Origin: Sinohyriopsis cumingii
Taxonomy: Eukaryota; Mollusca; Bivalvia; Unionida; Unionidae
NCBI GenBank assembly: GCA_028554795.2
Contig: CM068830.1
Location: 110,931,214-110,995,213 of the forward strand
Length of the DNA: 64,000 bases
Reading direction: 5' to 3'
Positions 25,789-57,957 of this stretch are shown here, piece by piece (position 1 is the stretch's first letter; every line of letters starts with the position of its first letter). A program made the translations under genes and the position numbers. The notes under the pieces were generated by a model that saw only the letters and a program-made list of their open reading frames with translations, did not search any database and was not told the DNA's origin.

Positions 25789-26127
25789 AGTAGTAAATGG
25801 GGTCACCCTAGGGACAATGGGACTTAGCATTAAAAACACCCCTGGGTCACTCTAGGGACAATGGAAATTTAACATGGAGAAAAATCGTGGGTCACTCTAG
25901 GGACAATGGGAATTTAACATAGAGTTTGGGTCTGTCTAGGGACAAGGGAAATTAACATGGGAATAGAGTTTGGGTTTGTCTAGGGACAAGGGGAATTGAA
26001 TATGAGATTTTTTTTAAAAAATTTTTTTAAAATTTAAATTTAAATTTAAATTTAAAAAAGGGTAGGCAATTGAAAGGCTATCTCTTTTCGAGAAATATGG
26101 CTGGCCCTGAAAAGGGCCTTTGGGTTT
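25789..26127. repeat. Element A left terminal inverted repeat with five iterons
   Basis: About 339 bp, inverted at 57,632-57,957. The outer part contains five imperfect copies of a 40-45 bp unit built on GGGTCACTCTAGGGACAATGG. The middle is a palindromic AAATTTAAATTT tract. The inner end carries the histone-like stem-loop (26,103-26,118). Confidence 0.92.
26103..26118 (-). terminator. Histone-type 3' stem-loop, left TIR
   Basis: On the minus strand it reads GGCCCTTTTCAGGGCC: a 6-bp stem with a UUUC loop, the canonical replication-dependent histone mRNA element. The 5' flank is CCAAA and the 3' flank AGCCA. A purine block GAAAAGAGATA follows, where U7 snRNA would pair. It lies 21 nt after the stop of the 26,140-26,719 gene. 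Confidence 0.75.
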
Positions 26128-26139
26128 CTTCTTCTTCTT

Positions 26140-26719
26140 CTAACTCCTTAACTTCTTCCACCAAGTCCTCACTTTTTCCATTATTCCTTTCTTCTTCTTT
26201 TTCTCCTCTGGCATCCAGTCTGGATGGCCCAAGGCTCTAAACTTTTCCTGGACTTTGATCCAATTCTGATTTAGCCTATCAAAATCATTGTTTCTTTTTG
26301 TTTTCCTGATCTTTTCTTTCTTTATACCATCTCTCTTTAATCTTCTTTACCTCTACCTCCATCAATTTTCTCATCAACTCCTCTCCTTTCCTAAGTCTTT
26401 CCTGACCTCTCTCCACATAAGAGCACTCTGTCCCATGTGACATTTTTTCAAGAAAACACCTGACTTTCCTTGCATTGTCAAGTGCTTCCTTTAGGCTTCC
26501 CACTCTGACATAGGTGGGATTTATCATACCTCTCAATCTCTTTTCCTCCTCTTCTATCATTCCTGCTATCAGTTCTTTTGCTATGTTTAGACATTTAGCG
26601 TAGTCCAGGTACTCTGCTATCTTCCATTCTTTTTCTAGTCTCTCCACTACATAGATACCATCTATTATCCAGTTGTATATATGTACCAAATTGTTGAACA
26701 AGTCACTTGTAACCACCAT
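26140..26719 (-). pseudogene. Terminal small gene 1 of element A, frameshifted
   Basis: The first 144 codons (26,285-26,719) encode a helical, charged protein of no recognised family. In the A-rich stretch around 26,290 the frame changes, and a coherent Lys/Trp-rich reading continues to a TAG at 26,140-26,142. I take this as the original end, because the histone-like stem-loop then follows at 21 nt, as in the sister genes. The promoter box lies at 26,771-26,811. Function unknown. Confidence 0.6.
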
Positions 26720-26770
26720 CTTCGTTTTTTTATTATTCCGTAGAATGGTTCTAATGACGAACGTGGTGGG

Positions 26771-26811
26771 TTCTTATAGTGAAAGCGCGGACGTGATGGA
26801 AAACATCCCCC
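26771..26811 (-). promoter_or_regulatory. Shared promoter box, unit 1
   Basis: On the minus strand: GGGGATGTTTTCC, ATCACGTCCGCGC, TTTCACTATAAGAA. A CACGTCCGCGC core is followed by a TATA-like CTATAAGAA, about 50 nt before the start of gene 1. The same block occurs at 27,519-27,556 and 28,391-28,430. A second partial copy lies at 26,855-26,880. Confidence 0.65.
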
Positions 26812-27112
26812 TAAAAACGTAAAATTGATCTTACCTAGATCATGACCAAGCAACGCGCGGATGTGAAGGAAAACATCCCCCACTTTTCTCATTTCATATA
26901 ATCAAACCCAAACTATACTCTCCACATAAGCTAAGAAACAATAAAGAAACCCATAATCTACTATTCACACAAACTTCCTTGAACATTTACAAACAAAAAA
27001 CACACAAACACATACACTCTCACTATCAATAAAGAGTTAGTGTTTATATTCACACTACTCTACCTACACACATTGGCAAATTAATAGTTATTTCTTTTCT
27101 AGAGTTTTGGGT

Positions 27113-27128
27113 AGCCCTTAAAAGGGCT
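27113..27128 (-). terminator. Histone-type 3' stem-loop, unit 2
   Basis: The minus strand reads AGCCCTTTTAAGGGCT: a 6-bp stem and UUUA loop, with an A-rich 5' flank and 3' flank ACCCA. TCTAGAAAAGAAATA follows about 12 nt later. It lies 30 nt after the stop of the 27,159 gene. Confidence 0.7.
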
Positions 27129-27158
27129 GTTTTTTTTTAAAACTCCAGATGCACCTAT

Positions 27159-27482
27159 CTAATGGTTGCACCTTCCTGGCCTGGCGCCACACACGCATCT
27201 TCTTCCCCAGTCTCCTTTCACCTTTCTTCTGGGGAGAGCAGAGGGAGGATGATTCGCTTCAACACCCCAATCCTCTGTCTCGGGAATATTGTACGACATC
27301 CTCTCTTCTAGTTTCTTTTCCTCCTCTTCCCTCTGTCTTCTCTCCTCCTCTTCGTTCTTCATTCTTTCCTCTTCTACTATAGCCTCCGCGGCCAGTTCAT
27401 TTAACAGGCGCCTGACATATTCCAGATGTATCTGGAGTTCAAGAAGTTTGCTTATTCTGCTATTCATTCTTGTGTTGATCAA
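27159..27482 (-). CDS. Terminal small gene 2 of element A: Glu/Arg-rich coiled-coil protein
   Basis: 107 residues. Residues 40-65 are a charged EEERRQREEEEKK helix, likely a coiled coil. A Cys-containing basic tail (RRCVCGARPGRCNH) follows. No family is recognised. It has its own promoter box (27,519-27,556, with CTATAAATT as TATA) and its own histone-type stem-loop 30 nt after the stop, so it looks like an independent transcription unit. Function unknown. Confidence 0.6.
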   Translation of the reverse strand: MINTRMNSRISKLLELQIHLEYVRRLLNELAAEAIVEEERMKNEEEERRQREEEEKKLEERMSYNIPETEDWGVEANHPPSALPRRKVKGDWGRRCVCGARPGRCNH

Positions 27483-27518
27483 TCAACAAGGGTAGCTAGA
27501 CTGCCCAGCGAGTTTCAA

Positions 27519-27556
27519 TTTATAGTGAAAGCGCGGACGTGATGGAAAACATCCCC
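27519..27556 (-). promoter_or_regulatory. Shared promoter box, unit 2
   Basis: The same GGGGATGTTTTCC / CACGTCCGCGC / CTATAAATT arrangement as at 26,771-26,811, about 37 nt before the start of gene 2. Confidence 0.65.
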
Positions 27557-27926
27557 CTAAAAACATAAAATTGATCTTACCTAGATCATAACCAAAAAGC
27601 AACAACGCGCGGACCTAAAAGAAACACTCACTCACTTTTTATGCTACCCATCACTATTTTAAAATTTTTTTTATAAATCACTTCAATAGACTATCCACAT
27701 ACGCAAAGCAATCCAATCTAACTCCTAATCTACACCTCAAACACCAAAAAAAAAAGACATCATTTTAATCTACTATCCATACCAACCTACTTAACCACTT
27801 ACAAACACAAACACACAAACACATACCCTCATATTTTTTAAAAAAAGAGTTAGTGTTTATTTTCACACTACTCTACCTACACACATTGGCAAATCGATCG
27901 TTATTTCTTTTCTAGAGTATTGGGGT
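27557..27926. repeat. Duplicated intergenic cassette of element A
   Basis: The stretch from about 27,519 to 27,945 repeats, in order, that from 26,771 to 27,130: promoter box, ACCTAGATCAT, A/C-rich spacer, GAGTTAGTGTTTAT, ACACATTGGCAAAT, HDE-like block, stem-loop. The separate genes thus share duplicated control DNA. Confidence 0.7.
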
Positions 27927-27942
27927 AGCCCTGAAAAGGGCT
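27927..27942 (-). terminator. Histone-type 3' stem-loop, unit 3
   Basis: The minus strand reads AGCCCTTTTCAGGGCT, with 3' flank ACCCC and then TCTAGAAAAGAAATA. It lies 31 nt after the TAA at 27,974-27,976. Confidence 0.7.
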
Positions 27943-27973: not shown

Positions 27974-28363
27974 TTAGTTTCTAAGAATGCGATGTCCTCT
28001 GAGGATAGACTTTCTGGCGATAGGTCTGCTTCTTCGGAAAGAGAAGAAGAACTCTTTGGTGTCGATACGACAATCGACAAAGCCTCTGTCAGCTTCAGGT
28101 TGCTGTTGTTGCTCTTGTTGCTGCTGTTGATGCTGTTGTTGCTGTCTCTGAAGTCTTTACTTCTCTGTCCATTCTTCTTTCTCCCTGTTCACTTCTTCTC
28201 TGAAGAACTCTTCTATCAGGTCTTCAGTGATTTTTAGCATTCTCACATTCTCTATTTCTTCTGGCTTCGGTATCAGACTGTGTCTGACCCTATGCAAATT
28301 CACGTAGGCTTCGTTGAGCTTAGCTAGTTTGGAGCACATCTTCGTAGGAGGATGAGTCGACAA
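27974..28363 (-). pseudogene. Terminal small gene 3 of element A, with in-frame stop
   Basis: The first 68 codons (28,157-28,363) give a helical, acidic protein. After an in-frame TAA (28,157-28,159) the same frame stays open through a Gln-rich tract to a TAA at 27,974-27,976, which has the normal 31-nt distance to the stem-loop. The annotation of the longer frame is therefore an inference from the 3' signal spacing. The Gln-rich stretch recalls the Gln-rich part of the 56,600-57,160 protein. No family recognised. Confidence 0.5.
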
Positions 28364-28390: not shown

Positions 28391-28430
28391 TTCTTAAAGT
28401 CAAAGCGCAGACGTGAAGGAAAACATCCCC
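28391..28430 (-). promoter_or_regulatory. Shared promoter box, unit 3
   Basis: The minus strand carries GGGGATGTTTTCC, TTCACGTCTGCGC, TTTGACTTTAAGAA: the same order as units 1 and 2, with a weaker TATA-like part. Confidence 0.6.
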
Positions 28431-28769: not shown

Positions 28770-30083
28770 CTAGTAATCTAGGATGACTTCTCTCAAACTG
28801 TTGATTTCTATGGTATTATCGAATTCTGCATACAGGATGACGTTCACCGTTTCATCAGGGTCTCGGTCTTTAAACTGAATTTCCATACGAATCTGGCCGG
28901 ATTTTATAGGGTGGAAATGTCCCTCGTCGCTGCCTTGGTCTGGAGTGAAATCAAAAGCCCACAAAGCGTAGCCTCCTGCATAATCCTCGTACCTAATACC
29001 GTGACTAGTATTGGTTCCTAACTGTCCGGTGGCTTCGTACAGGGACAAGTACGATCTCAAGTAATTCTTCTTGGTAAAGTCAGGTTCGAAAGGTCGGGTT
29101 CACAAGGTCTTGCCATCGCGACTGACTTCGATTTTGGACACGCCAAAGTGTTGAAAGTAGAAAGGATTTTTTTCGGCAGCTCCGTTGAAGGCTGTATTCT
29201 CGACGATACCAACGATCAAACGTTTGGGTAACTGTCCTTGGAACAGATGATCTTCGATCATGGATCGCTGTCCCTTGGGAATGGTGAAGGTTTTCACTTC
29301 CACGCGTCGTATGGGATACTTGGCAGTCGTTCTGCTCAACGTCTGAATGATGTCGTTTCCCACTTTAGGTAACACTTCCACACGGCGTACGTAGAGTCTG
29401 GCTTCTAGGATTTTGGTTTTGTAACCGTCACTATCAGCCAATAAATGGAAATCGGTACTGCTACGATTCAGTCTCAGGCGGACATCCACCCCGTTCAGCA
29501 AATACTTTTCTTGCAACCACATGTCCAAATGCAAACGATCCATCAGTTCTAAACTTGTGTCGGCTCCCGTGATTCTCTTTCTTCGTTCTACAAATCCATC
29601 ATTGTTGTCTTTCTTTTCATCAGTTTCCAATATTTCAAACTTGGTAGGTTCGTCAGCTTCCCATACCACACAGGCATTGAGATGAGTGTTCTTGGCATCT
29701 ATTCCGTACGTCAAGAGATTTTCCAAGTAGGCACGATAAGGGTAAGTATCCATGCTGCTACTGACCAGTTTGTTATTAAAGTACAAGTCCACTCTACTGA
29801 ACAAGGAATGCATGAAAGTGTTGACGGGAGCTACTGCTTCATCGTCTATAGCACCTACAGTCTTATCTAGAATTTTGACTTTCAGGTACAAGTAACTGCT
29901 ATTCAGATCGATGTAATCTTCGGGCTGTCCTTTGATTTCAAACTCGATGGGAGCGGAATCGGTCAGTGAGGAGACGGGGTGAAATTCCACCCACTGGGAT
30001 TCTTGCATCGTCATCATCGTGGGGGGCATGGCAAACAGGTCCAGTTCCGTCTTGGAACAAGCGCAAGATTCTCGGTGCATCAT
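28770..30083 (-). pseudogene. Maverick major capsid protein (double jelly-roll), one in-frame stop
   Basis: About 437 codons. The open N-terminal part (29,100-30,083, 327 aa) and C-terminal part (28,770-29,099) are in the same frame, separated by one TGA at 29,100-29,102. The protein matches the Maverick major capsid family known from animal genomes as F54H12.2-like: VEFHPVSSLTDSAPIEFEIKG near the start, FMHSLFSRVDLYFNN, and a C-terminal EYAGGYxLWAFDFTPD-like region followed by an INVILYAEFDN-type strand. It would form the hexon-like icosahedral shell. It lies at the downstream end of the capsid gene string. The in-frame stop may be mutation, readthrough or assembly error. Confidence 0.85.
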
Positions 30084-31450: not shown

Positions 31451-31869
31451 AATTCCAGAGTTCTGTGGCTGTCCGAGGGGTTACTGTACGTCAGAGGCGT
31501 TTCTCTGTCTAAAATGGGGTTTTGGTTGTGGTTGAAGTGGTGACTGGCACTGGCACTGGACACATGGTTCCCGGGGTTTCCGTTCGAGGTGAATTTCAGG
31601 GAGGGATTAGGAAGCAGGTAACCGATGCAACTGCTCAGTAAAATGGTCCACAATTGGTTGTCTCCTTGTTGCAAACTCAAATTGGCGATGGCTGCCCCGA
31701 TGACACAATACACCACGAAGATTTGGCAGAAAAAGACGATTTGCTTTTTAGGCACACGTTCTCCACAACACACCCACAAGGGTTGTTTTTGTAAATCTTG
31801 CACAGAAGAACTAGGTGAAGGAGGAGTGGTCGACGTAGCTGCGTCTGTGTGAAAAGGCATGATGGTCAC
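31447..31869 (-). CDS. Small membrane protein of element A
   Basis: 140 residues. A Cys-containing juxtamembrane segment (LWVCCGERVPKKQIVFF) leads into one long hydrophobic helix (VVYCVIGAAIANL) and a second short one ending YLLPNPSLK. Proteins with this layout sit between the penton and integrase genes in other Mavericks. Topology and role (capsid envelope, entry or exit) are unknown. It overlaps both neighbours by 4 bp. Confidence 0.65.
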   Translation of the reverse strand: MTIMPFHTDAATSTTPPSPSSSVQDLQKQPLWVCCGERVPKKQIVFFCQIFVVYCVIGAAIANLSLQQGDNQLWTILLSSCIGYLLPNPSLKFTSNGNPGNHVSSASASHHFNHNQNPILDRETPLTYSNPSDSHRTLEL

Positions 31870-32975
31870 TTCTTTTTATAGTCGATGACTTGCGAAGCGT
31901 CGATCCAAGAATCAAAACTGGGTGGATATCCTTTCCAACGTACTTTGACTTCTTTGACACGTCGTTTGCCCACTTTACGGGTTCTGCGTTCGAGAATGCT
32001 TTCGATGTCGTACACGTCGTCTTCTTTTTTGGTGACACGTTGTAACTCGGGCAAATAAAACGTTCCTTTGAGCACTTCTCCGTTCATGTCTTCCAATTTA
32101 TAGACGGCAGGATGACGGCCATGCACTCGTCCAGTGACGCGAAACAATTCGGTCGTCCAGTTAGGTAAGTAACCTTTGTCGAAAGTGCGTTTGGTTTTGC
32201 CAATGCGCACCCAATCTCCTACGGTCAACTCTCCGCTTTTGTTGGGGACAGCCCTCGTCGGGGACGTACCAAACAGACGCTCAAACACCAACACTTCGTT
32301 GTCGGGAGTCACGTCTTGCGGGGCACGTCCGATGCTTCGATGGTAAGATTGGTTGTACGCTTGCACCAGGTGCGGTAAGATGTCGATGTACTTCAGAGTG
32401 TGGTGATGCGTAAAATATTTCCACATGCGTTCTTTCAAAGTGCCTTGAAAACGTTCCACGATGCTGGCTTTGGTTTCGGGATTCTCGGTGGTAAAAAAAT
32501 GAATGTCACGTTTCTTTAATTCTTTTTGGAAAGCTTGGTTCAGAAATTCGGTGCATTTGTCCGTTTGCCATCGAAGAGGGTGACGACCGCTTTGTTTCAA
32601 CACCCGTTGCAGGGCTCGCACTAACTCGCTGCTCGATTTGGAAGTCAAGGGCACGACCCAGGCAAATTTGGAAAAGACGTCGATGACACAAAATAAATAT
32701 TTGTAGCCACGATTGTAGCTGGCCAAATGAGAGACATCGGCTAAATCGGCTTGCCATTGATGATCGATGCCTTCCACTCGGGTGCGACTTCTGGCAAACT
32801 TGCGTCGAATGGGTTTGTGTAAAGTGTAGGTAGCTTGTTCTTGTAACCATCGTTGCACTTGAGGTAAACGGAGACTTTTCAGTCGCGTTTTAGCAGCACG
32901 ATACAATTTTTGAACTCTTGCGTAACCTGCAGGATTCGAGGGATCGTAGTAAATGCTGGCTAAGACTTTTTCCAT
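31866..32975 (-). CDS. Retroviral-type integrase with chromodomain, element A
   Basis: 369 residues, intact. An N-terminal helical zinc-binding-like region is replaced by a basic helix bundle. The rve core has D77 (QADLAD), D139 (QTDKCTEF) and E174 (SIVERF), with the exact D-35-E spacing. The usual Gly after TDK is Cys here. An SH3-like region (VGDWVRIGKTKR) follows, and then a C-terminal chromodomain (YDIESILERR ... KVRWKGYPPSFDSWI). It would join the element ends to target DNA and give the 6-bp duplication; the chromodomain may steer it to modified histones. Confidence 0.92.
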   Translation of the reverse strand: MEKVLASIYYDPSNPAGYARVQKLYRAAKTRLKSLRLPQVQRWLQEQATYTLHKPIRRKFARSRTRVEGIDHQWQADLADVSHLASYNRGYKYLFCVIDVFSKFAWVVPLTSKSSSELVRALQRVLKQSGRHPLRWQTDKCTEFLNQAFQKELKKRDIHFFTTENPETKASIVERFQGTLKERMWKYFTHHHTLKYIDILPHLVQAYNQSYHRSIGRAPQDVTPDNEVLVFERLFGTSPTRAVPNKSGELTVGDWVRIGKTKRTFDKGYLPNWTTELFRVTGRVHGRHPAVYKLEDMNGEVLKGTFYLPELQRVTKKEDDVYDIESILERRTRKVGKRRVKEVKVRWKGYPPSFDSWIDASQVIDYKKK

Positions 32976-33712: not shown

Positions 33713-34131
33713 AGCAGCAGAGGGGGCGAATCGGACAATTGGCTGAATCGTCATTTGGTTTAATTGATACTTTCTGCACTCAGCGGATCCAGCGTCGTCA
33801 GCGCCTGGTAAATAAAAACGACCACGTCCACGGGGGGCGGCAAATCGACAATTGTCCGGAACGTCATTTAGTTTAATATACTTTCTGCATTTTCGATCCA
33901 GCGTCGTCAGCGTCCGGTAAAAAAAGCGCGACGACGACGTGGTTGTCATTGCCCCCTCTGCTGCTAGGTGTTACAATGAAAATTATTTACAATTTAACCG
34001 AATATTTGGTCAAGTCCGATACGATATCGTGTCCGAGGATCATGTAAATTTATCGTTACAAATCCATGTGGGGTCGACTGAGCATGACTAAAAAAGTTTC
34101 GAAAAACATTAAAGTCCATGTCACCGCCGCA
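33713..34131. repeat. Element B left terminal inverted repeat
   Basis: It mirrors 48,733-49,152. The outer 253 bp (to 33,965) form a module flanked by inverted copies of AGCAGCAGAGGGGGC. Inside it are two imperfect direct repeats of about 85-90 bp, each with GACAATTG, TTTCTGCA and GATCCAGCGTCGTCAGCG. The inner about 138 bp are the 3' coding part of the ATPase gene. Confidence 0.9.
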
Positions 34132-34668
34132 TCATGTCTGCCAAATATTTCGTAGCGTGTGTGTATCAACGCCGTTGAACACAGCAAGAATATTACAGTT
34201 ATCTCTGATTACTTTTGGAATCTGAGTGTATCGTTGAGTGACATATATCACGTCAGTGTTTTTATGCCTGCCTCTGGAAAATATCCTAGCTGGGTTTTTT
34301 TGATTGTCTAACATAACATCATCGTACACGACTAGATTGTTAACGTTGCCATCAATATCATCAATACCTGGTGCATCACTGATATCTGTAATAAACTCAA
34401 TAACATTTTTTTCAGTGATCGCTGATGCATTCTCGTTAAAATCTTTCAACACCTCGTAGCATCGTTGATCATCCACGCTAGGGGCGATTAAATACAACTT
34501 ATCCCACTTCATCCATCTCATTATTAAATTAAGTAGTAATTGCGTCTTGCCGGATCCAGATGGTCCGATGATAATCATCCGGATCGAGTTTGGTAACGCT
34601 GCAACATGCTTAACTGGTTCTCTTGTTTTAGTCGCCGAAAAATCAATTATATTCATATCTCTATACAT
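33994..34668 (-). pseudogene. A32-type packaging ATPase, element B, one in-frame stop
   Basis: It is open from 34,668 to a TGA at 34,132-34,134, then stays in the same frame to the TAA at 33,994-33,996. Walker A is GPSGSGKT, Walker B LVVYDDVM, sensor region VIYVTQRYTQ. The last third lies in the terminal inverted repeat, and its mirror copy ends at the other side of the element. It is divergent from the zinc-ribbon/PLA2 gene with only about 5-17 bp between the start codons. The start may be Met1 or the second Met (34,656), which matches copy C better. Confidence 0.8.
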
Positions 34669-34673
34669 AAATT

Positions 34674-35197
34674 ATGGATCTATATTGTGTGAAGTGTAGA
34701 GTGCATACTGGCACAAATGATATGACCACCGTCACAACAAAAAATAATAGATCAGCACTTACTGGTAAGTGTGTACAATGCGGTATAAAGAAATTTAGAT
34801 TTATTTCTATTAGACCCGGGGATGTTTTAAAAAAAAGCGAGAAGGTGATATTGCAGCCAAGTTATCAAAACTCCCCGGAACACCGTGGGCAAAGTATCCA
34901 GGAAAAAAGCACCTCCCAGGATATAACTACTGTGGCCCCGGAACACGATTAGATATCAGACTCGATGATCAAAATCAGCCCAAACCCGGTGAGTATCCAA
35001 TAAACGCTATCGATAAGGCGTGTCATGCTCATGATGTTGCTTATAAAAGTAGCGATCTGCAACAGCGTCATATCGCGGATGTAAAATTAATTCACGCGTT
35101 AAATACCATTCCTGATAAATCATTCAAAGAAAAATTGGCTTCATGGTTGGTAAAATCGGCTATGAAAGGTAAATTAATGATGGGCGCTGGTAATTAA
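34674..35197 (+). CDS. Zinc-ribbon + phospholipase A2-like protein with a frame change at A8, element B
   Basis: The first frame encodes a zinc ribbon (YCVKC...CVQCGIKKFRF, DUF5679-like). At TTTTAAAAAAAAGCG (about 34,826-34,840) the coding sense passes to the -1 frame, where a parvovirus VP1-type PLA2 follows: calcium loop YCGPGTRLD, then the catalytic His-Asp in CHAHDVAYKS, stop at 35,195-35,197. Such PLA2 domains act on endosomal membranes during virion entry. Copy D has the same frame change at the same A8, while copy C has both domains in one frame. It is either a programmed -1 shift or a shared indel. Confidence 0.75.
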
Positions 35198-35204
35198 TAA
35201 CAAC

Positions 35205-36149
35205 ATGGAATCCATCTATTATTCTCCGAGAGGATACTGGAAAGGGAAGGCTGCAATTGATAAACTCGCAAGCGCTGCAAAAGTAACGAGGGCCACTGCG
35301 GCTAATTGGTTATCCAAACAGGCTATATGGCAAATTTATCTACCACCGCCTAAACAAATCAACTTCTCGCGCTTTGATGTCAGCGTACCTAATGAAGTTC
35401 ATCAGGCTGATATACTATTTCTGCCGCATGACAACGGTTACAAATACGCGCTAACCGTAGTTGATGTTGCGAGTCGATACAAACAAGCGGAACCGTTAAA
35501 AACAAAGTCGGCAACTGAAGTAGCCGATGCGTTTGAGCGGATTTATCGAAGAGGTCCTCTGCGCTGGCCAAATCTATTACAAGTTGATCCTGGTAGTGAA
35601 TTTCGCGGCGCTGTTCTATCAACGCTGAAACATCATAGCGTCGCGGTACCACGAGGTCGTACTGCGCTACATCGTGATCAGGCAATTGTTGAACGATTCA
35701 ATCGGACTCTTGCTGAACGGTTATTTGCATATCAATACGCAAAAGAATTCATCCAAGAAAAACGATCTCGTGAATGGGTCAAAAGGTTGCCAGGCGTAAT
35801 TGCAGCGTTAAATAACGAGATTACCCGAGCAATCAACATGAAGCCCAGCGACGCGATAAAAAAAAGGTATATACCCGGAAGATCAAAAATAAATAGCGTT
35901 TCCAAGCCGATTCTCGGCGATGTCACCGTGAGATATTTATATGAATCAGGAGAGCTTGAAGGCGGCAGAAAAAGAGCTACTGATCCTATTTGGAGTGTCA
36001 CCACGCACAGGATATCTACTATAACACGATCAACTGGTAGACCACCGATCTATAGACTGGATTCAACTGCCCCACAGCGGGGGTTTACACGCGAGCAACT
36101 ACAAGTGATACCTGACGATACTCAATTACCCCCGCGTGGTCTTAACTAG
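35205..36149 (+). CDS. rve-type integrase, element B
   Basis: 314 residues, intact. The N-terminus has a small helical domain (YWKGKAAIDKLASAAKV...WLSKQAIW), not an HHCC finger. The catalytic core has D69 (HQAD), D128 (QVDPGSEF) and E163 (AIVERF), with D-35-E spacing. A C-terminal SH3-like domain includes TVRYLYESGELE. It differs from the element A integrase by lacking a chromodomain. It follows the PLA2 gene by 7 bp and overlaps Rep tail to tail by 8 bp. Confidence 0.92.
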   Translation: MESIYYSPRGYWKGKAAIDKLASAAKVTRATAANWLSKQAIWQIYLPPPKQINFSRFDVSVPNEVHQADILFLPHDNGYKYALTVVDVASRYKQAEPLKTKSATEVADAFERIYRRGPLRWPNLLQVDPGSEFRGAVLSTLKHHSVAVPRGRTALHRDQAIVERFNRTLAERLFAYQYAKEFIQEKRSREWVKRLPGVIAALNNEITRAINMKPSDAIKKRYIPGRSKINSVSKPILGDVTVRYLYESGELEGGRKRATDPIWSVTTHRISTITRSTGRPPIYRLDSTAPQRGFTREQLQVIPDDTQLPPRGLN

Positions 36150-39612: not shown

Positions 39613-39651
39613 ATAATTAAAACAAGTATTTAAATGAAAGAATATAGTATA

Positions 39652-39975: not shown

Positions 39976-39988
39976 TATTATTACACAA

Positions 39989-40540: not shown

Positions 40541-40703
40541 ACGTTACAATTAATTGTCTGTTTCAAAGAAAACGAATTATCTTTACAGTTTCATCGAAGT
40601 ATTCAGTGTTGTTTAACGTTTTTTAAGTAAATGAATAACACACCTCGGGATTGATACGCAGAGTTCATTTTGTAAAAAAATTTTTTATATTAAAAATAGG
40701 AAT

Positions 40704-42819: not shown

Positions 42820-42849
42820 AAATCGTAGATTTTCACTCAAGGAGTTTGC

Positions 42850-44306: not shown

Positions 44307-44328
44307 TTAAAAACATAAATGTTTTAGA

Positions 44329-44820: not shown

Positions 44821-44831
44821 CGCAAGAGTCT

Positions 44832-45257: not shown

Positions 45258-45259
45258 CA

Positions 45260-46906: not shown

Positions 46907-46913
46907 TTTAACA

Positions 46914-47582
46914 ATGACATATTTGATAATGAATTCCCCGTCGCACTACCGATACGATACTGTGCGGGTATACGCCGCGGATCTAAAAACACGCTTGCAA
47001 CAATACGATAGAAAAATAAAAAAATACCATCGAAGGGTAACCGCGATTGACGTCACCGTGTATTCGGTGTCCGGTGTGATGGCCTGAGCCGGCATTATAC
47101 TATCGTCGGTTACAATGATTGCTCCGATTGCAATTCCAATTGCGATTTCCGCGGCGACAACAGTTGCCGGGGTTGCAACCGCGATTACTAAAAAACTATC
47201 ATCGTGTTCTCAGAAAAAATTCCGTGATTATACAATAAAACATCAAATAGTATTTAACGCGTACTCGAAATTATCCGAGCTGATCTCAAACGCGATTGAT
47301 GACTCGCATATATCCGACGTTGAATTCTCCACGATGACGCAATTGTATAACTCCGCAGTGTCAAAATTAGAAATTGAAAACAAAATACCTGATAACAATA
47401 ATGTCGCTGAACCCCGAAGGGTTTCAATTACTTCAACGGATCGCGGAGAACACCACTCCGGTACAAACAAGTATGATATCGATAACATCAACGAAACCAG
47501 AATTCAGTGTGAACTTCCCATCATCGGTTCCAGTGAAGGAAATATCCCTGGCAAAATTGCGAATATATCACAGTTGGCCTAA
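46914..47582 (+). pseudogene. Membrane-active protein with one in-frame stop, element B
   Basis: The two open parts (to 47,087 and from 47,088) are in the same frame, split by a TGA at 47,085-47,087. The N-terminus is basic (KTRLQQYDRKIKKYHRR). A long hydrophobic region (MIAPIAIPIAISAATTVAGVA) follows, then a helical domain with SKLSELISNAIDDSHISDVEF. It may be a capsid-associated membrane-interacting protein. The 3' end overlaps the start of the penton-like gene, whose promoter-like box lies within it. Confidence 0.55.
47372..47400 (+). promoter_or_regulatory. AATTGAAAACA box before the penton-like gene
   Basis: AATTGAAAACAAA begins 29 nt before the ATG at 47,401 and AACAATA adjoins it. It lies inside the coding part of the preceding gene, so the match is not simply intergenic AT-richness. 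Confidence 0.55.
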
Positions 47583-48719
47583 TATCCGAGCGGATGCATT
47601 TAACGGACAACAATCTAACAACTCGCTGGTTTTTGCATGGACAAATAAACCCGATAGGACCCCAGACTGGAAAACTGTTTCAATACCAACTGGTCATACC
47701 AAATAGAACAAATCAATAAAGAATTTCAACGCAGGATAAAATCGATTACCACAAAGGAATCAAAAATAGCTATTACGGTTCATGAACCGACGTTATCGTC
47801 GACGATTGAAATAAGCACACCGGGGTATATGGTTGATATTTATAACAGTTCAATAAGAACCATACTAGGATGGCCTGAGAATCCACCTCATGGAATCACC
47901 GCAGACTTGCACACGAATGCGCAATCGTATCATGAGATTAACCCCGGGTATCGAGATGATTTGTCTATTATAAAAAACACGTTATTACCCAGTAGGTTTA
48001 TATTTCAAGACAGGAATACCATGGAATGGTATTTTCCGTATAAGGAAACTCCTGAATCGTCCGCCACGGTCACAGTTAATTTAAATGATATCACTGGTGC
48101 TTTTACCGAGATTAATCGTAATTACCAATCACAACTAGAACAGCTACGGAAAACAAAAACACGAAAACACGTTGAGGTGTTAAATCAACTTATATCAGAC
48201 ATGGAATATATCAATGAACGAATCGTTAAAACAATATCTGCTAACAGCGATGATAATAAACAAAAATTCCTAACCGAGTATAATATCACAGAAGCCGATT
48301 TACCCGATGTCAAGTTTCCAAAATACAACGCGCCAGAACTAAGAAAATCTCTTAATGATTTTCTCGGCCCATCAACTATCCTCAGACACGATAACGGAGA
48401 GGGTGGTAGGCATATTGCTCCATACAACGTAAATATTACATCGGTAATAGCAATCAATCTAGTGTGTGATGTTATCGAAGGGAGTTATCAGGTGAATACC
48501 AAGCAATCAAATCAGGCTGAACAGGGGTATATCCTTTATTCATTTTAACCAACAGCCCCTCCGGGATTTTTAATTATTGAGAGTCCGATTAATCCGGTCT
48601 ATATGCGATGCCATAATCGGTTTTTAACGAGAATTAATTTCAGACTTACCGATCAGTCAAATAACCTAATTGATCTACAAGAGGAGGAGTTAGTGATCAC
48701 TCTGTTTGTAAGATCATGA
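47401..48719 (+). pseudogene. Penton-like minor capsid protein, element B, one frame change and one in-frame stop
   Basis: The open N-terminus (to 47,706; VNFPSSVPVKEISLAKLRIYHSW) has the opening typical of Polinton-like minor capsid proteins. The sense passes to another frame near 47,690 and runs through 47,829-48,548. An in-frame TAA stands at 48,546-48,548, after which the same frame is open to a TGA at 48,717-48,719. That stop overlaps AGCAGCAGGAGGGG, the motif that also overlaps the ATPase stop in element C. The C-terminal part has a strand-rich end LVITLFVRS. Confidence 0.6.
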
Positions 48720-48732
48720 GCAGCAGGAGGGG

Positions 48733-49152
48733 TGCGGCGGTGACATGGACTTTAATGTTTTTCGAAACTTTTTTAGTCATGCTCAGTCGACCCCACATGG
48801 ATTTGTAACGATAAATTTACATGATCCTCGGACACGATATCGTATCGGACTTGACCAAATATTCGGTTAAATTGTAAATAATTTCCATTGTAACTCCTAG
48901 CAGCAGAGGGGGCAATGACAACCACGTATTCGTCGCGCTTTTTTTACCGGACACTGACGACGCTGGATCGAAAATGCAGAAAGTATATTAAACTAAATGA
49001 CGTTCCGGACAATTGTCCATTTGCCGCCCCCCGTGGACGTCGTCGTTTTTCTTTTACCAGGCGCTGACGACGCTGGATCCGCTGAGTGCAGAAAGTATCA
49101 ATTAAACCAAATGACGATTCAGCCAATTGTCCGATTCGCCCCCTCTGCTGCT
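48733..49152. repeat. Element B right terminal inverted repeat
   Basis: The inverse of 33,713-34,131. It starts inside a copy of the ATPase 3' coding end (stop TAA at 48,868-48,870) and ends with GCCCCCTCTGCTGCT. It includes the inner inverted 15-mer at 48,899-48,913. Confidence 0.9.
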
Positions 49153-50620: not shown

Positions 50621-51376
50621 TTATAGATTTTTTGATGGGGAGTGAAATGAAGTCGAGGACGGAGACGTGTACAGGACAGGCCCTCCGTCTTGGCACCAGT
50701 GGTGAAACAAGTGGGTACGAAATCGCAAATCCTCGGGAGTCGTAGGTTTCAAATCGACGAGTAAATAGGCGTGTGGCGTTTGAGTGGCATCGTCGTACGC
50801 CTGAGTCAGCCAAGGCGTTCCTAACTGTTTGGCTAAGACTTGCACTTGCGATTTATCTCGAGGGCTTTTAAACAAGACCACGTAATGCGCATTGAGACTG
50901 ATGGTGCGATGGGCTTTACTTTGTTGAAACAAATTTTGGGTGATGTAAACGACACTGGCATTACGGTGATGCCCTTTGCGCGTAAGCCACAGTTTAATTT
51001 CTTCTTCGTCTTCTCCTAACATGTCGTCGAAAATGACCAAATGGGTTTGACGGGAGTCAGAGACGATACCGTCGTCTTCTTTAGGAATGCCTTCCACAAA
51101 CACGATGGAATCGCCTTGACTTTCTCGCAAGAGGCTGTACGCCGATTGCCACTCTTTGTAACACCACACGATCCGTTGAGGTGGCCGATCGATCAAATGA
51201 TGTTTATGTTCGATCAAACGTTTGACGAATTCGGTTTTGCCTGAACCGCTAGGTCCAGCAATGAGCATGTTAAAGGGATGGCAAAGATACAAAGCCTCCC
51301 AACTGGCACGATCTAAGTGTTCGTGGATGACTTTGACAGTAGAGGAAGAGGGAGCAGAGACAGCAGAGGTAGCCAT
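50621..51376 (-). CDS. FtsK/A32-type packaging ATPase, element A
   Basis: 251 residues from MATSAV (51,376). Walker A GPSGSGKTE follows FNMLIA. Walker B is HLVIFDDML. The ITQ-type sensor VVYITQNLFQQSK and an Arg-rich region complete the HerA/A32 plan. It would drive DNA into the capsid. It belongs to the minus-strand morphogenesis string. It is only distantly similar to the ATPases of elements B and C, in line with two separate virus lineages. Confidence 0.88.
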   Translation of the reverse strand: MATSAVSAPSSSTVKVIHEHLDRASWEALYLCHPFNMLIAGPSGSGKTEFVKRLIEHKHHLIDRPPQRIVWCYKEWQSAYSLLRESQGDSIVFVEGIPKEDDGIVSDSRQTHLVIFDDMLGEDEEEIKLWLTRKGHHRNASVVYITQNLFQQSKAHRTISLNAHYVVLFKSPRDKSQVQVLAKQLGTPWLTQAYDDATQTPHAYLLVDLKPTTPEDLRFRTHLFHHWCQDGGPVLYTSPSSTSFHSPSKNL

Positions 51377-51444
51377 TGTGTGAGAAATGTCACTTGTGAC
51401 ACGAAAACAAACAAGACAAGAGTTTATATACTTTTTCAGAACAC

Positions 51445-51450
51445 GTTTAT
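51445..51450 (-). promoter_or_regulatory. Poly(A) signal for the PolB unit
   Basis: AATAAA on the minus strand, just after the stop of the 51,459 gene and before the ATPase start at 51,376. It separates the PolB unit from the morphogenesis unit. Confidence 0.5.
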
Positions 51451-51458
51451 TGAATGTT

Positions 51459-51827
51459 TCAAACATGAATACGAAAGACAAAAATACATAAAAGCCAAAG
51501 GCTTAAGTACAAGAATAAAAGGCACATAATAACCATGAACGTGGAATAAACACAAGTGTCTGTACAACATGATTTGGGTAAAGTTCTAACCAGTTCTATA
51601 GTAGGGGGTAAGGTCACACAAGTGTCCTCCCGAAAGGGTCTTTCAGGCCTGTCCACGACAGTCCCGTCCTGGGTGACGGGTTCTTCTGGCACCGTCACTA
51701 ACACGGGTTGAAAAGTAACTTTTTTCCGTGAATAACTCTCGTGCAAACTGGGCCACCTCTTGGGTCCAAGCCAAACCAATCTGGTTTCTTCTTCGTCAAC
51801 GACATGGTAAGTTACTTCAATGAACAA
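51459..51827 (-). CDS. Small tail-anchored-type membrane protein, element A
   Basis: 122 residues. A hydrophilic N-terminus (YHVVDEEETRLVWLGPKRWPS) is followed by a Pro/Thr-rich region and one C-terminal hydrophobic helix (FMVIMCLLFLYLSLWLLCIFVF). It starts 4 bp after the PolB stop. Topology and function are unknown. Confidence 0.55.
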   Translation of the reverse strand: MFIEVTYHVVDEEETRLVWLGPKRWPSLHESYSRKKVTFQPVLVTVPEEPVTQDGTVVDRPERPFREDTCVTLPPTIELVRTLPKSCCTDTCVYSTFMVIMCLLFLYLSLWLLCIFVFRIHV

Positions 51828-51831
51828 TGAA

Positions 51832-54800
51832 CTATCGATCTTGCCTAGGGTTCCTTTTTATATACAGACCAATACCGACGTGACCGTACGGCAACGTAAA
51901 GTGATTGGGAAGTCGCACTCGCTTCTGGTACACGATTTGATAGACTTTTTCCAAGGGTCGACTGACAATGTGGTGAGTGGGTAAACGTACAATCTTGTTC
52001 GGTTGATAGGTGGTCACTTTAAAGTTTCCATCCTCTCCCGATTGCAAGGCTTCTTTCAATACCCCAAAGTTGACCACTCGACTGGTACGATGATTCAGAG
52101 TCAGTCCTTTCACTTTGCACGTCGTGTGCACTTCTCCTTGTTTGTCCCGGTATTCGTAGCCGTAATTTTTGGGGCCGCCACTGACGAAACTTAGAATCTT
52201 GTCGTCGGGATGCTCGTCTGTCCAGGCTCCTAAACGGTCTCCTTCGATGTCAGGGTGATGTTGAATTAGGTGATGGATGTAAATGCAACTGTCCGTGTCA
52301 AAGTACAGGACGCGTTCTTCTAACAGTTCTAAAGCTTCGTACAATTTTAAGCGAGCATGAGCTGTCACGTAAGCCGCAATGATGACATTTCCAAAAGGGT
52401 CTTCTTGTACAAAGTCCAGATCTTCTTCGTAACTGACCAAGATCAAATCCTCTCGAACGACGTCCACGTGTTTCATGTATTTGGTTTTGTCGTGAATCAT
52501 CTGGAAGTAGCGGGAAGGTTCTGTCAAATATTCCGTCTTGGGTAAACACGGTCGTTGTGCCATTTTACCCCACAAGCAATTTAACATCACTTTGGCAAAC
52601 GATCGCCTGCCTTCGTTTTTTTCGATGTGGTCTAAAGAGATGCCTTCTTGTTCGTAGTATTTCTCTTTGAATTGTATTTGGTCTTCGGGAGTGTGACACC
52701 AGGAAGGATAGCCGCTGGCTTCTTGTTTCAGTTTCAAAAAGGCATCCACGTAGTCGGCGAAAATGCCTTTCTGAGTAGGGTCACCCTTGTGGTACTGTTG
52801 TGTCTTGGGAAAGTGGCAAATTTCGTACACTTCTAACAGTTGGTATCCCATGTCCAGAGCTTTGAACAATTCCACGCTGGCCCAGGTTCCCGTCACGGCA
52901 CGTTCTTCCTGGCTGTGATGGTAAGGTTGGTCCTGGTTGCACGTTTCGGCACAAGTACGGCACAAGGGAAACATCAGTTTGCCTTGACAATGGTGAGGTA
53001 AGACGGGATGGTATAGGTTCGTGGGAGGCAAAACTTTACACTTGATCAAGCCTTCGTATTGTCGAATGTTTTTCAGGTCGATGTGTTCCGTCAGCAATCG
53101 CGGGTGCCCTACAGGAAAGGGACAATATTTGCACACGTAGGGATACAGCGAACACACATCCAAGTATTTGATTTCTTCTCCTTTCTCTTCGTCGGCTTGG
53201 TACAGCAAACAGGTGGCATTGGTCCTTCCTCCGTACAAACTATCCCTCGGGTTCAACCGGTCCATGAACTGGTAACTTTCCACGAGGCCTTTAAACTCGG
53301 GATCGGTTTTCATACGGTGATCGTACTCGTGTTCCCACATTTCCACCACTTGGTATCCTTGCTGTTCTAACTTTAGGCGCCGCTGACAAGTGGCCTGGTA
53401 CAAGTCTTCCATGGTTCGTTGTAAAAACTGATTTTTAGTGCTACGGTCAGGGTAACAGACGGGACATCCGTGAAATAAGCAGCCGTTAAACTCGTACACG
53501 ATCTTGGGGTTTTCTAAGTCCCAGCCATCGACCGAATACGTTCCGATGGTCTTTTCACCCCCTCCGTTGCGGGCATGCTGAATCCATTTGTCTTCCTTGT
53601 CGCACAAGTAATGTAACCAGCGTAGGGCTTTGACCGAGTATTGACCTTGACATAGTGGGTCGTTTGAGGGCTGATGACAGCTACGGTGTTTTCAGGCATG
53701 AATCGTTGTCGATACACTAAGGAACACGCTTTGGCAATGGTGCAAGCTTCTTTCAAAGGATCGACCCCTCCGTGTTCCATGAACAGTTCTCGAAATTTTC
53801 CACAGCAACGTCGTAAAATGTCCACGTCGGAACGACAGTACTTTAGCATTTCTTCCTGAAAGTCGAAAGGGTCCGAGGCGTGACCTGGTACCAAGCGTAG
53901 AAAGCTTCTCTTTGTTCGGTACGCATGTTGTCGGGGTCGTAATAGTGAGCCTCATGTAAATGGGGTAGAACGGCGTGTTGTATGGCTTCCGTATTGAAAA
54001 AGTGTGGAAAGTACCCTTTAGCCATTTCTGTCATTCCAAACGTTTTAGGCATTCGGCTCAAAGGCATGGCCAAGTAGTTCATCGAATCTTTAAACTGTAC
54101 TTGTCCCACTTGCATGAACATGATTTTGGCTCCGTTCAAAGTCACTTTAGGACGTTCGGTGCCTTGTTCCGTATAGTATCTCAAAAGAAACTGTCCATCG
54201 TATCCGGAGAAATTGTGAGCCATCACCGTGGCATGACGATGACAATCTCCGTAACGTTCGATGTCCTCTTGGCTCCACGTCTTGTCGATGGGATCTAAGA
54301 CCCATTGGGCAAAATCGGCTAACGTGTTCGGTCCCCGAAAGATTTTTTCACGTCCTCCAGGAATCTTGCTGCAGTGAGGGCAATGACGGAAGATAGGTTC
54401 TTGAATGCACTTCTCGCACGCTCGATGAGCCACGCAGAAATTAGGAATGTGAATGCCGGTCTCTTGCATGCATTCGAAATCGAAAAAGATGAAATTGCCT
54501 TTCTTCTTGTGACCGTCCTCTTTCTCTGGTGGGGTTGGCATTTTTGCACGTAGCATTCGTGTTCCAAGTCCACGATGTGGTGACAAATGTGACATTTTTT
54601 CTATCCTCGACATACGTGTGCCTTGGTACTATTGGTACGTATGCCTTGTCCACAGGCAGGGCACATTCTCAGCAGTTGACAAGCACATTTCTTCTGTGAA
54701 CCTTGTGTTTTCAAATGTTGTTGGTAACAGGTAGGACTGACACACGTGCGCAGACAAGTTGAACAAGGCACTGGTTCTTCGCTCAGACAGGGTGGAGAGG

Positions 54801-56308: not shown

Positions 56309-56599
56309 ACAAGGAAACAGAAGAAGTCAATGAACTTTTAATTAAAGTGTTGTGAATTGTGAATTGGATTGTAACTATGGATAAAAGAATACATTAATGA
56401 TACAAGGTAAGTGTCTTTGAGTTGTGATTTTAAAATAAGAAGCTACACTCACGCACTCACACACAGACACGTACTATAAGGGTAAAATGGGTGGGGTTTT
56501 TTTTTGTTTGAGTTATTGGCAAATTGAAATTGTATTTCTTTTCGAGAAATGTGGGTGGCCCTGAAAAGGGCCTTTTTTCTTTATGGTGCAGGAGTGAGT
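56309..56599. other. intergenic stretch with the unit-4 stem-loop
   Basis: It lies between convergent genes. It has the sequence ATTGGCAAATTGAAATTGTATTTC and the histone-type stem-loop for the minus-strand gene. No clear poly(A) signal for the plus gene. Confidence 0.6.
56557..56572 (-). terminator. Histone-type 3' stem-loop, unit 4
   Basis: The minus strand reads GGCCCTTTTCAGGGCC, with 5' AAAAAA and 3' ACCCAC, then CGAAAAGAAATAC. This is a near-textbook histone 3' end, 27 nt after the stop of the 56,600 gene. Confidence 0.8.
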
Positions 56600-57160
56600 T
56601 TAACCAATCAACTTTAACTGCCTTAAGCCTTTGCCACGGCCAAGGCCTACTTCTGATGATTGGGTTGAAATCACTAAGGGTGGTACGATAGGCTTAGTCA
56701 CAGGGTTGGCGTGTTTAGCTCGGGAAGGTCGTATTCTCTTCGGTCGTGATAAAGAAGTCTGATACATTTGTTTCAGACTTCTTAACTCCGCTAAAATGTC
56801 CAACAGTACCGTAGCCGTTTGATTTTCACCCTCTTGTTTCTTTGCTGCTACTTCTTCTTGCTGTTGTTGCTGTTGTTTTTTTCTTACCTCTTCTTGTTGC
56901 TGTTGCTGTTGCTGTAGGAGAAAAGCTTGTTCCGCTTCCTTTTGTCGTTGCATAAATTTCTCCAATTCTTCTTTCTGTCTCTGTCTAAAATTCTCCACTT
57001 GCGGTAATGAAGAATGAGACGAAGGTTCCGGAACAAATTCTTGTGAGGTAAGAAAATCCACAAAATCCCAATGTACCTCTTCTGAAAGTAAGTCCGGGTT
57101 CCCTTGGGCGGTCTCCCCTGCTGGTGCACCCCAATGGATCGTTTTCTGAATTTCCGTCAT
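56600..57160 (-). CDS. Gln-rich coiled-coil protein with histone-type mRNA end, element A
   Basis: 186 residues. An acidic N-terminus is followed by a long helix with two polyglutamine blocks and EEVRKK/EEVAAKK units, then a leucine-rich helix (TATVLLDILAELRSLKQMY) and a basic C-terminus. It is probably oligomeric through the coiled coil. TATA-like CTATATAG lies at 57,208-57,215 on its strand, and the histone-type stem-loop comes 27 nt after its stop. No known family; a replication-phase regulator is a guess. Confidence 0.65.
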   Translation of the reverse strand: MTEIQKTIHWGAPAGETAQGNPDLLSEEVHWDFVDFLTSQEFVPEPSSHSSLPQVENFRQRQKEELEKFMQRQKEAEQAFLLQQQQQQQEEVRKKQQQQQQEEVAAKKQEGENQTATVLLDILAELRSLKQMYQTSLSRPKRIRPSRAKHANPVTKPIVPPLVISTQSSEVGLGRGKGLRQLKLIG

Positions 57161-57207
57161 GTTGAATCACTGTCGCATAGATTGACTGCACACAAGCGCT
57201 AGCGAAT

Positions 57208-57215
57208 CTATATAG
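57208..57215 (-). promoter_or_regulatory. TATA box of the 56,600-57,160 gene
   Basis: CTATATAG about 48 nt before the start codon on the minus strand. Confidence 0.5.
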
Positions 57216-57326
57216 ACCAACTGACGTTACAGACTGCTCTCTTCGGATTGGATGCGGGCTGACTGAATTTTGTAACGCGTGTTTGGATTGGTGAATGAAC
57301 TCAATCCGTTTCAATCCTACCTCTAC

Positions 57327-57337
57327 CTATAAATAAA
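57327..57337 (+). promoter_or_regulatory. TATA box of the 57,380-57,616 gene
   Basis: CTATAAATAAA about 43 nt before the ATG; a CAGTGCATTGATTC initiator-like stretch follows. Confidence 0.6.
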
Positions 57338-57379
57338 CGCAGTTCAGTGCATTGATTCACTTGTTCTCGTCGCTTCAAG

Positions 57380-57616
57380 ATGTGGACCGATGTGCAATCT
57401 TCTACGCTTGTGTCTTCCATGATGTTTAGGACGGACATGCTCATGTATGTCAGGTCCAAGTGGACTGTTGTTGATAGGACAGATACTAGTCAATGGATGA
57501 GGAGAGTTTACATAGAAAGACAAGGATGTCTCAAGAGGGTACTTGTGTATGGACCGGCAGTTAGAAGGAGTTTAAGAAGAAGAAGAAGAAGATGTGACAG
57601 ATGCCATCTATGTTAA
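57380..57616 (+). CDS. Terminal small gene 5 of element A: Arg-rich protein
   Basis: 78 residues, ending RRSLRRRRRRCDRCHLC: an arginine cluster followed by CxxCxxxC-like cysteines. It has its own TATA box, and the stem-loop of the right TIR lies 24 nt after its stop, the mirror image of gene 1 at the other end. An RNA- or DNA-binding role is suggested by composition only. No family recognised. Confidence 0.6.
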   Translation: MWTDVQSSTLVSSMMFRTDMLMYVRSKWTVVDRTDTSQWMRRVYIERQGCLKRVLVYGPAVRRSLRRRRRRCDRCHLC

Positions 57617-57631
57617 TATTAATATTAACAT

Positions 57632-57957
57632 AAACCCAAAGGCCCTTTTCAGGGCCAGCCATATTTCTCGAAAAGAGATAGCCTTTCAATTGCCTACCCC
57701 TTTTTAAATTTAAATTTAAAAATTTTTTTAAAAAAAAAATCCCATATTCAATTCCCCTTGTCCCTAGACAAACCCAAACTCTATTCCCATGTTAATTTCC
57801 CTTGTCCCTAGACAGACCCAATCTCTATGTTAAATTCCCATTGTCCCTAGAGTGACCCACGATTTTTCTCCATGTTAAATTTCCATTGTCCCTAGAGTGA
57901 CCCAGGGTGTTTTTAATGCTAAGTCCCATTGTCCCTAGGGTGACCCCATTTACTACT
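57632..57957. repeat. Element A right terminal inverted repeat with five iterons
   Basis: The inverse of 25,789-26,127, with the same five CTAGGGACAA iterons and AT palindrome, about 13 bp shorter in the AAATTT tract. Confidence 0.92.
57641..57656 (+). terminator. Histone-type 3' stem-loop, right TIR
   Basis: GGCCCTTTTCAGGGCC with 5' flank CCAAA and 3' flank AGCCA, then CTCGAAAAGAGATAG. Confidence 0.75.

Follow-up and report, generated by a model that had tools for sequence, protein, structure and literature searches.

Introduction

According to a 2007 paper (PMC1924863), histone genes are the only genes known whose mRNAs finish in a hairpin and carry no poly(A) tail. The 3′ ends analysed here share with the replication-dependent histone mRNA 3′ end (Rfam family Histone3, RF00032; SLBP/U7) a six-bp stem, a four-nt U-rich loop, an A-rich 5′ flank, an HDE-like block at 13–14 nt, a stop codon close by, and the absence of a near poly(A) signal. 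They differ in that the gene products are not histones by Pfam, and in that the genes belong to a mobile, virus-like element of which many copies are dispersed. Like described Polinton/Maverick elements, this element combines TIRs and a 6-bp target-site duplication (TSD) with PolB, an rve integrase with a chromodomain, an A32-like ATPase, and a putative capsid-like protein. In contrast, its terminal genes have 3′ ends of histone type and, in three cases, an upstream element like that of histone genes. In the literature searched, we found nothing on histone-type 3′ ends on Maverick terminal genes. If a virus-like element copies the control signals at both ends of histone genes, it would break the rule that such mRNAs belong to histone genes alone, and would show that S phase of the host can be followed in a new way.

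Results and discussion

The window, which is the whole 64-kb stretch of DNA analysed, contains an outer Maverick/Polinton at 25789..57957 that is interrupted by a nested element. Its termini read AGTAGT...ACTACT and are flanked by the 6-bp TSD AACATT (25783-25788 and 57958-57963). The 340-nt stretches compared from the left TIR (25789..26128) and right TIR (57618..57957) are identical in 321 of 353 aligned columns. Together with the TIRs and TSD, the features by which the element was assigned to Mavericks are an rve-core integrase with a chromodomain (31866..32975, minus strand), an A32-like packaging ATPase (Pox_A32; 50621..51481, minus strand), and a family B DNA polymerase (DNA_pol_B_2; 51832..54613, minus strand), which is fragmented in the window copy. 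A further protein, labelled capsid-like by inference (29100..30083, minus strand), has 511 homologues, some of them named from animal genomes, and no Pfam match. The five outermost genes are g1 (26285..26719, minus strand, a 144-aa ORF), g2 (27159..27467, minus strand, 102 aa), g3 (28157..28339, minus strand, 60 aa), p56600 (56600..57160, minus strand, 186 aa), and p57380 (57380..57616, plus strand, 78 aa, with an arginine-rich end). None of the five matches Pfam at E 0.01, and so none is a histone by Pfam. The predicted structure of p56600 is one long helix with low-confidence tails.

Each of these five genes is followed on its coding strand by a hairpin with a perfect 6-bp stem and 4-nt loop, at the positions that the earlier note had given. 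The stem-loops after g1 (26103..26118, minus strand) and p57380 (57641..57656, plus strand) both read GGCCCT-TTTC-AGGGCC and score 35.6 bits with RF00032, and the stem-loop after p56600 (56557..56572, minus strand), which lies outside the TIR, has the same stem and loop and scores 41.2 bits. Those after g2 (27113..27128, minus strand; AGCCCT-TTTA-AGGGCT) and g3 (27927..27942, minus strand; AGCCCT-TTTC-AGGGCT) score 30.3 bits (E 1.2e-4) and 29.3 bits (E 2.7e-4). Thus, the model scores all five hairpins and places three of them over its gathering score of 34 bits, the two weaker ones having come from an E-value search. A relaxed hairpin pattern finds exactly these five in the window, while a second-order Markov null of the element arms gave a mean of 0.09 relaxed matches and 0 strict matches over 300 runs. 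The five sites are not five independent events, because the hairpins at 26,103 and 57,641 are identical, each marking the inner edge of one TIR arm, and an 85% direct repeat contains the pair at 27,113 and 27,927. Past each stem is an HDE-like element, with the sequence GAAAAGAGATA for g1 (26079..26089, minus strand) and p57380 (57670..57680, plus strand), and GAAAAGAAATA for g2 (27089..27099), g3 (27902..27912), and p56600 (56533..56543), all three on the minus strand. The element, with its GAAAAG, begins 13 nt past the stem in each case except g3, where the distance is 14 nt.

For three genes the stop-to-hairpin distances proposed earlier can be read off as they stand (30, 27, and 24 nt), but not for g1 and g3, the frames of which are disrupted ahead of the hairpin in the window copy. 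For g1, the proposed 21 nt exists only in another frame, while the open frame ends 166 nt ahead of the hairpin; for g3, the proposed 31 nt corresponds to a later stop in the same frame, which has an earlier in-frame stop 214 nt ahead of the hairpin. Neither AATAAA nor ATTAAA occurs within 260 nt past the stops of the five hairpin-bearing ORFs. The capsid and PolB units had been said to carry AATAAA instead, which is correct for the capsid-like gene, with AATAAA 108 and 205 nt past it, but not for PolB itself; the ORF downstream of PolB has AATAAA at 7 nt.

We compared these 3′ ends with those of one host histone unit (L103), which spans 8.3 kb with the gene order H3-H4-H2B-H2A-H1 and contains five hairpins. 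Four genes of this unit have a GGCCCT/AGGGCC stem and the fifth, H1, has GGTCCT/AGGACC; the loops are TTTT, TTTC, or TTTA, and the stem begins 27–38 nt past the stop. The host hairpins have Rfam scores of 35.0–39.4, which lie within the span of the Maverick scores. GAAAAG is found 13 or 14 nt past the stem at all five Maverick ends and at all five host ends, and hence the downstream block described previously as HDE-like has both the core and the spacing of this host unit. In a joint alignment of host and Maverick hairpins, pairing holds in 60 of 60 cells, and changes on both sides occur in two of the six pairs; of 500 shuffles, none reached the covariation score and 22 reached the number of both-side pairs. 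Genome-wide searches with the Rfam U7 model (RF00066), which returned no match, and with the SLBP domain (PF15247), for which 14 candidates were scored and none passed, are uninformative because their controls were blank too; the SLBP gene may be split by introns.

Because all the hairpins are palindromic and two lie in TIRs, they could in principle be DNA-level features, such as a replication origin, a packaging signal, or a transposase site, with a likeness to histone signals that arose by chance or constraint. We regard this explanation as barely credible. Three hairpins lie outside the TIRs, the hairpins occupy the coding strand 18–36 nt past stop codons in the gene ends counted, their flanks, loop, HDE, and spacing match those of host histone genes, and their covariance scores are in the range found for histone signals of the host.

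The same arrangement recurs throughout the 2.9-billion-base genome. All 75 of the Histone3 matches listed are in Maverick-family copies, 74 identified by protein and one by TIR similarity only, and no core histone was seen near them; H2A, H2B, H3, and H4 matched at 0 of 77 loci (H1 was not among the queries). We collected 78 gene ends at which a protein match reaches the stop, 75 from loci selected by hairpin and three from the window. In these, the stem begins 18–36 nt past the stop, six Watson-Crick pairs are present in 65 of 78, and an HDE-like block is present in 75 of 78. Among 20 near-identical copies chosen by protein, the hairpin with ACCCA is found in 19 and six Watson-Crick pairs in 16. 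In two sets of copies with loci not selected by the hairpin compared (n=13 and 11), the stem-loop is 0.95/0.93 identical and the HDE 0.92/0.90; the coding end reaches 0.77/0.80 and the interval from stop to stem 0.79/0.70. Identity past the HDE is also rather high in places (0.86 beyond 80 nt for p56600 and 0.89 at 41–80 nt for g2), and therefore shared ancestry may account for part of the conservation.

The earlier note had looked to related elements for retention of the stem-loop with covariation, and both are seen in diverged copies with 39–100% protein identity, where compensated pairs occur in two stem types. This persistence bears on whether the signals are functionless relics that arrived with captured pieces of histone genes. 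The disrupted frames in the window copy and the stem-breaking changes in some copies fit that account, but the stem-loop, flank, and HDE are among the best-conserved parts of the 3′ region across these diverged copies, and the two stem types persist with compensated pairs, making decay a very improbable explanation. The form of the stem, loop class, HDE core, and spacing shared with one host unit, along with retention in many diverged copies, strongly support the identification of these sequences as histone-type 3′ ends. Mavericks in general may not share the trait, as RF00032 was unmatched in three Maverick-like contigs, which are fragments, from two bacterial MAGs.

The likeness to histone genes extends upstream of the three left genes. 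A 24-nt element ahead of g1 (26784..26807, minus strand) and g2 (27530..27553, minus strand) is identical at 24 of 24 nt to a sequence preceding host H2B, and the one preceding host H1 differs by a single letter. It recurs with 3 mismatches in a second copy at g1 (26854..26877, minus strand) and with 2 mismatches at g3 (28404..28427, minus strand). All 11 other g1/g2 copies that extend far enough upstream also have it, with up to 3 mismatches. The core, ACGTCCGC, which host H2B and H1 share with Maverick g1 and g2 in their upstream regions, resembles an HINFP-type histone promoter motif; a literature search found nothing on the motif. A 23-nt core of the element occurs at 6,443 exact places in the genome. 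Among 19 sampled places, a hairpin plus AAAAG lies within ~1 kb at 15 (shuffle mean 0.41, maximum 3), with 5 of 19 element-chosen stretches passing an equally loose hairpin test on the opposite strand, and 18 of 19 have g1/g2 similarity or a histone-type hairpin.

This abundance, the features of the sampled places, and the identity of the H2B element with the g1/g2 form would also be expected if Maverick DNA had donated the upstream and 3′ signals to the host histone array. Transfer in that direction appears improbable: the hairpin and HDE are general in animal histone genes, according to the 2007 paper (PMC1924863), and by local alignment the upstream match between host and Maverick is limited to 24 nt. 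Moreover, host H4 has a different, related upstream stretch that is present at g2 as well, as an identical 21-nt sequence, TTTCTTTTAGGTCCGCGCGTT (27604..27624, minus strand).

The right genes lack the upstream element (0 of 39 for p56600 and 0 of 43 for p57380), and these two genes therefore have only the 3′ end in common with host histone genes. The absence of the element there would fit another role for the hairpin, as nothing more than a compact signal that ends transcripts within ~50 nt of the stop, just before the TIR or a convergent gene, with no part in the cell cycle. Two hairpins are indeed at inner TIR edges, and p56600 ends toward a convergent CCHC gene. We consider this role possible but doubtful, given that g1–g3 do have the histone upstream element, that inner genes have AATAAA instead, and that the hairpin itself is required to couple histone mRNA to replication in animals, as stated in another paper (PMC2781718).

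Instead, we think it highly probable that the Maverick lineage acquired the control signals of histone genes. Host histone genes are the probable source of these signals, which duplication would then have spread over the terminal genes. The hairpins would be bound by SLBP and the HDE-like elements would pair with U7, likely directing cleavage as in histone mRNAs, so that messages of the five genes are predicted to lack poly(A) tails and to be switched on during DNA copying. The proposed link to S phase gains support from the histone-gene upstream element on g1–g3, which makes it likely that transcription of these three genes is tied to S phase. Proteins of the terminal genes would then be made while the host replicates its DNA, with the capsid and polymerase units relying on ordinary polyadenylation signals.

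A broader form of this model, to which we give an even chance, is a counterfeit histone regulon in which thousands of cassettes, each combining a histone promoter element and a histone 3′ end with a small viral gene, undergo transcription and processing together with host histone genes in S phase, without poly(A) tails and perhaps in histone locus bodies. If true, no other virus-like element is known to produce its mRNAs in the manner of histone mRNAs. Such a regulon would confine the action of the element to cells able to replicate its DNA, and host and element may compete for SLBP and U7. These transcripts would be missed in poly(A)-selected RNA data, and the timing of Maverick gene expression would become testable. 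If expressed, the cassettes might provide more of the SLBP/U7 substrates than histone genes do, since the upstream core occurs at 6,443 places in the genome compared with 662 first-look histone candidates.

Histone-type hairpins follow the outermost genes of a Maverick

The outer element (25,789-57,957) is a Maverick. It is flanked by the target-site duplication AACATT, has terminal inverted repeat (TIR) arms that agree at 321 of the 353 columns of their alignment, and encodes an rve integrase with a chromodomain (rve+Chromo), an A32-like ATPase, and a family B polymerase (PolB). Its capsid-like protein has 511 relatives, and the named ones among the 120 listed include proteins from oyster, periwinkle, sea cucumber, and whitefly.

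A pattern check of the window found all five claimed histone-type hairpins where the earlier note had placed them. They sit 3' of the outermost genes, three on the left (g1, g2, and g3) and two on the right (p56600 and p57380). The Rfam covariance model for the histone 3' stem-loop (RF00032, Histone3) scores all five, with three passing the curated cut-off of 34 bits, and with the g2 and g3 hairpins, at 30.3 and 29.3 bits, falling under it but reaching significance for a search of the window (E 1.2e-4 and 2.7e-4). When the element arms were modelled by a second-order Markov null, 300 runs gave no strict sites and a mean of 0.09 relaxed sites, compared with the 5 observed, and on these nulls and the Rfam E-values we reject a chance origin of the hairpins. 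GAAAAGA, which contains the core of the downstream U7-pairing-type element (HDE), occurs 27 times in 128,000 positions (both strands of the window), so that its chance occurrence at one of two fixed spacings is ~0.0004 per site.

The stop-to-stem distances given previously hold for g2 (30 nt), p56600 (27 nt), and p57380 (24 nt), but those for g1 (21 nt) and g3 (31 nt) are true only past a frame disruption in the window copy. Among loci L003-L032, five other copies have a g1 match: the stop lies 18-21 nt before the hairpin in L006, L017, and L019, and the frame does not reach a stop before the hairpin in L010 and L021. Neither AATAAA nor ATTAAA occurs within 260 nt past the stops of the five terminal ORFs. 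AATAAA had been assigned to the capsid and PolB units; it follows the capsid-like gene and, in the PolB unit, an ORF that lies downstream of PolB rather than PolB itself. For the CCHC gene, the signal is ATTAAA, 32 nt past the stop. The five hairpin sites trace to about three lines, a TIR type, a p56600 type, and a g2/g3 type.

The Maverick signal matches the host's histone 3' ends

The host histone matches listed, with 150 scored of 662 candidates in the 2.9-Gb genome, fall mostly in ~8.3-kb tandem units. These histone genes, together with the Maverick's relatives, point to an animal host. The unit that we fetched as L103 contains H3, H4, H2B, H2A, and an H1-like ORF with one hairpin each. 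Four of these genes share the stem GGCCCT/AGGGCC, and H1 has GGTCCT/AGGACC. All ten ends, five from this host unit and five from the Maverick, have GAAAAG 13 or 14 nt past the stem. Scores are 35.0-39.4 bits for the host hairpins, 29.3-41.2 bits for the Maverick hairpins in the window, and 45.6 bits for the best copy elsewhere. In a joint alignment of host and Maverick hairpins, standard pairs fill 60 of 60 pair cells, with both-side changes at pairs 1 and 3. Of 500 shuffles of this alignment, none matched the observed covariation score or percentage paired, 22 matched it in both-side pairs, and all 500 matched it in further pair types. The strongest single result is this correspondence, by which the Maverick carries the host's own version of the histone 3' signal.

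In animals, the hairpin is bound by SLBP, the HDE is paired by the U7 snRNP, and histone mRNA is cut a few nucleotides past the hairpin with no polyadenylation (PMC1924863, PMC9756948). Because the Maverick ends hold what that machinery reads, in the host's own form, we infer that the five Maverick mRNA ends are probably processed by host SLBP/U7. On this reading, the 5' end of the host U7 snRNA would contain a stretch complementary to CTAGAAAAGA. Genome searches recovered neither U7 nor SLBP, an outcome that does not speak for their absence. Among the papers listed by literature searches, which covered few subscription titles, we found no report of Mavericks or Polintons with histone stem-loops, of viruses with SLBP or histone stem-loops bearing on such a Maverick system, or of histone locus bodies tied to transposable elements or viruses in such a system.

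The hairpins recur in related Mavericks across the genome

A genome search with RF00032 scored 75 places among 589,472 first-look candidates, and all 75 were fetched, as 77 loci that include two duplicates (L039/L081 and L046/L082). Maverick proteins of the outer-element family lie near 74 of the 75 places, and the remaining place has TIR similarity only. A core histone match at none of the 77 loci rules out that host histone genes were mistaken for Mavericks. The lack of histone loci among the scored places does not mean that the host lacks them, because scoring covered 75 of the 589,472 candidates and host hairpins score under 69 of the 75.

We compared 78 gene ends (45 p56600, 18 g2, and 15 p57380), 75 of them from hairpin-selected loci and three from the window. 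Six Watson-Crick pairs are present in 65, the loop TTTC in 73, and an HDE-like block in 75. For hairpins that had not been used for locus choice (n=13 and 11), identity is above that of the coding end and the stop-to-stem stretch, and it is also high in some stretches further downstream (0.86 and 0.89). Among 20 minus-strand p56600 copies chosen by protein from 150 listed, 19 have the hairpin with ACCCA and 16 have six Watson-Crick pairs, a sample that says little about selection because the 150 listed copies are 98-100% identical in protein. This identity among the 150 scored copies (of 34,990 candidates) suggests that the p56600 family has likely expanded recently, besides older copies. Fifteen p56600 copies among the matches listed lie on one strand in ~16.7-kb steps, with one step missing, on contig C2 (61617416-61868393), a spacing like that of a Maverick-derived unit repeated in tandem.

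A histone-type element precedes the left-hand genes

The 24-nt element GATGTTTTCCATCACGTCCGCGCT lies 5' of g1-g3, exact before g1 and g2 and with two mismatches before g3; an extra copy before g1 has three mismatches. Host H2B has the identical 24 nt in its upstream region, and H1 has a version that differs at one position. The g2 and host H4 upstream regions have 21 nt in common. In histone unit L103, GTCCGCG occurs three times, 5' of H4, H2B, and H1. From this match with host histone genes, g1-g3 are probably also transcribed in S phase. The core of the element may resemble the HINFP motif, for which a literature search listed no useful paper.

Every other g1/g2 copy with a long enough upstream stretch (11 of 11) has the element with up to three mismatches. 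The identity of the element is 0.958 vs 0.80-0.87 in its surroundings (n=8). With up to five mismatches, it is found in none of 39 p56600 and none of 43 p57380 copies, and comparison of the p56600 and p57380 promoters with host histone promoters gave no match above shuffles.

Exact matches to the 23-nt core number 6,443 in the genome, compared with none for a reversed control. We fetched 20 of those listed, on one contig, and dropped one that was too short. A histone-type hairpin with AAAAG downstream is present in 15 of the remaining 19 (shuffle mean 0.41, maximum 3). Applied to the opposite strand, this loose hairpin test is positive for 5 of the 19. Six hairpin cassettes (L104, L106, L107, L109, L119, and L122) have no similarity to g1 or g2, so further genes seem to be flanked by the same histone-type signals. 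In these six loci the hairpin lies at ~470-507 nt of the fetched stretch.

Terminal gene products and neighbouring elements

A Pfam scan of the terminal genes gave no family match. Weak NCBIfam matches of p56600 (E 8.9e-4 and 0.012) and g2 (E 0.057), all far under cut-off, were set aside as coiled-coil noise. For p56600 there are 20 protein relatives and no match among solved structures, and its AlphaFold model is a single long helix of low confidence (mean pLDDT 69). A protein search with the g1 ORF returned no homologue.

Searches of viral contigs with the integrase, PolB, and the capsid-like and p56600 alignments gave no confirmed relative, and a hairpin pattern gave two contigs, neither with an Rfam match at the gathering score. 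Against genome contigs, the capsid-like alignment matched three loci (L033, L034, and L035) in two bacterial MAGs, the contigs concerned being probably animal contamination. The MAGs are labelled as an endosymbiont of Escarpia laminata and Breoghania, and the capsid-like proteins are 34-44% identical. These three Maverick-like contigs contain no Histone3 match.

Two further elements lie in the window, and the histone-form hairpin is absent from the nested element and from the part of the third element that the window contains. The nested element (33713-49152), lying within the outer Maverick, belongs to a different, Maverick- or adintovirus-like family, with TIRs of ~420-440 bp at 33,713-34,131 and 48,733-49,152. 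It encodes an rve integrase and a 1172-aa protein with helicase matches, and it also shows matches to a double jelly roll and, at a weak level, to an adenovirus protease. The third element, present in part (58351-64000), is 98% identical to the nested element over 150 nt and has a phospholipase A2-like domain at 58690-59025.
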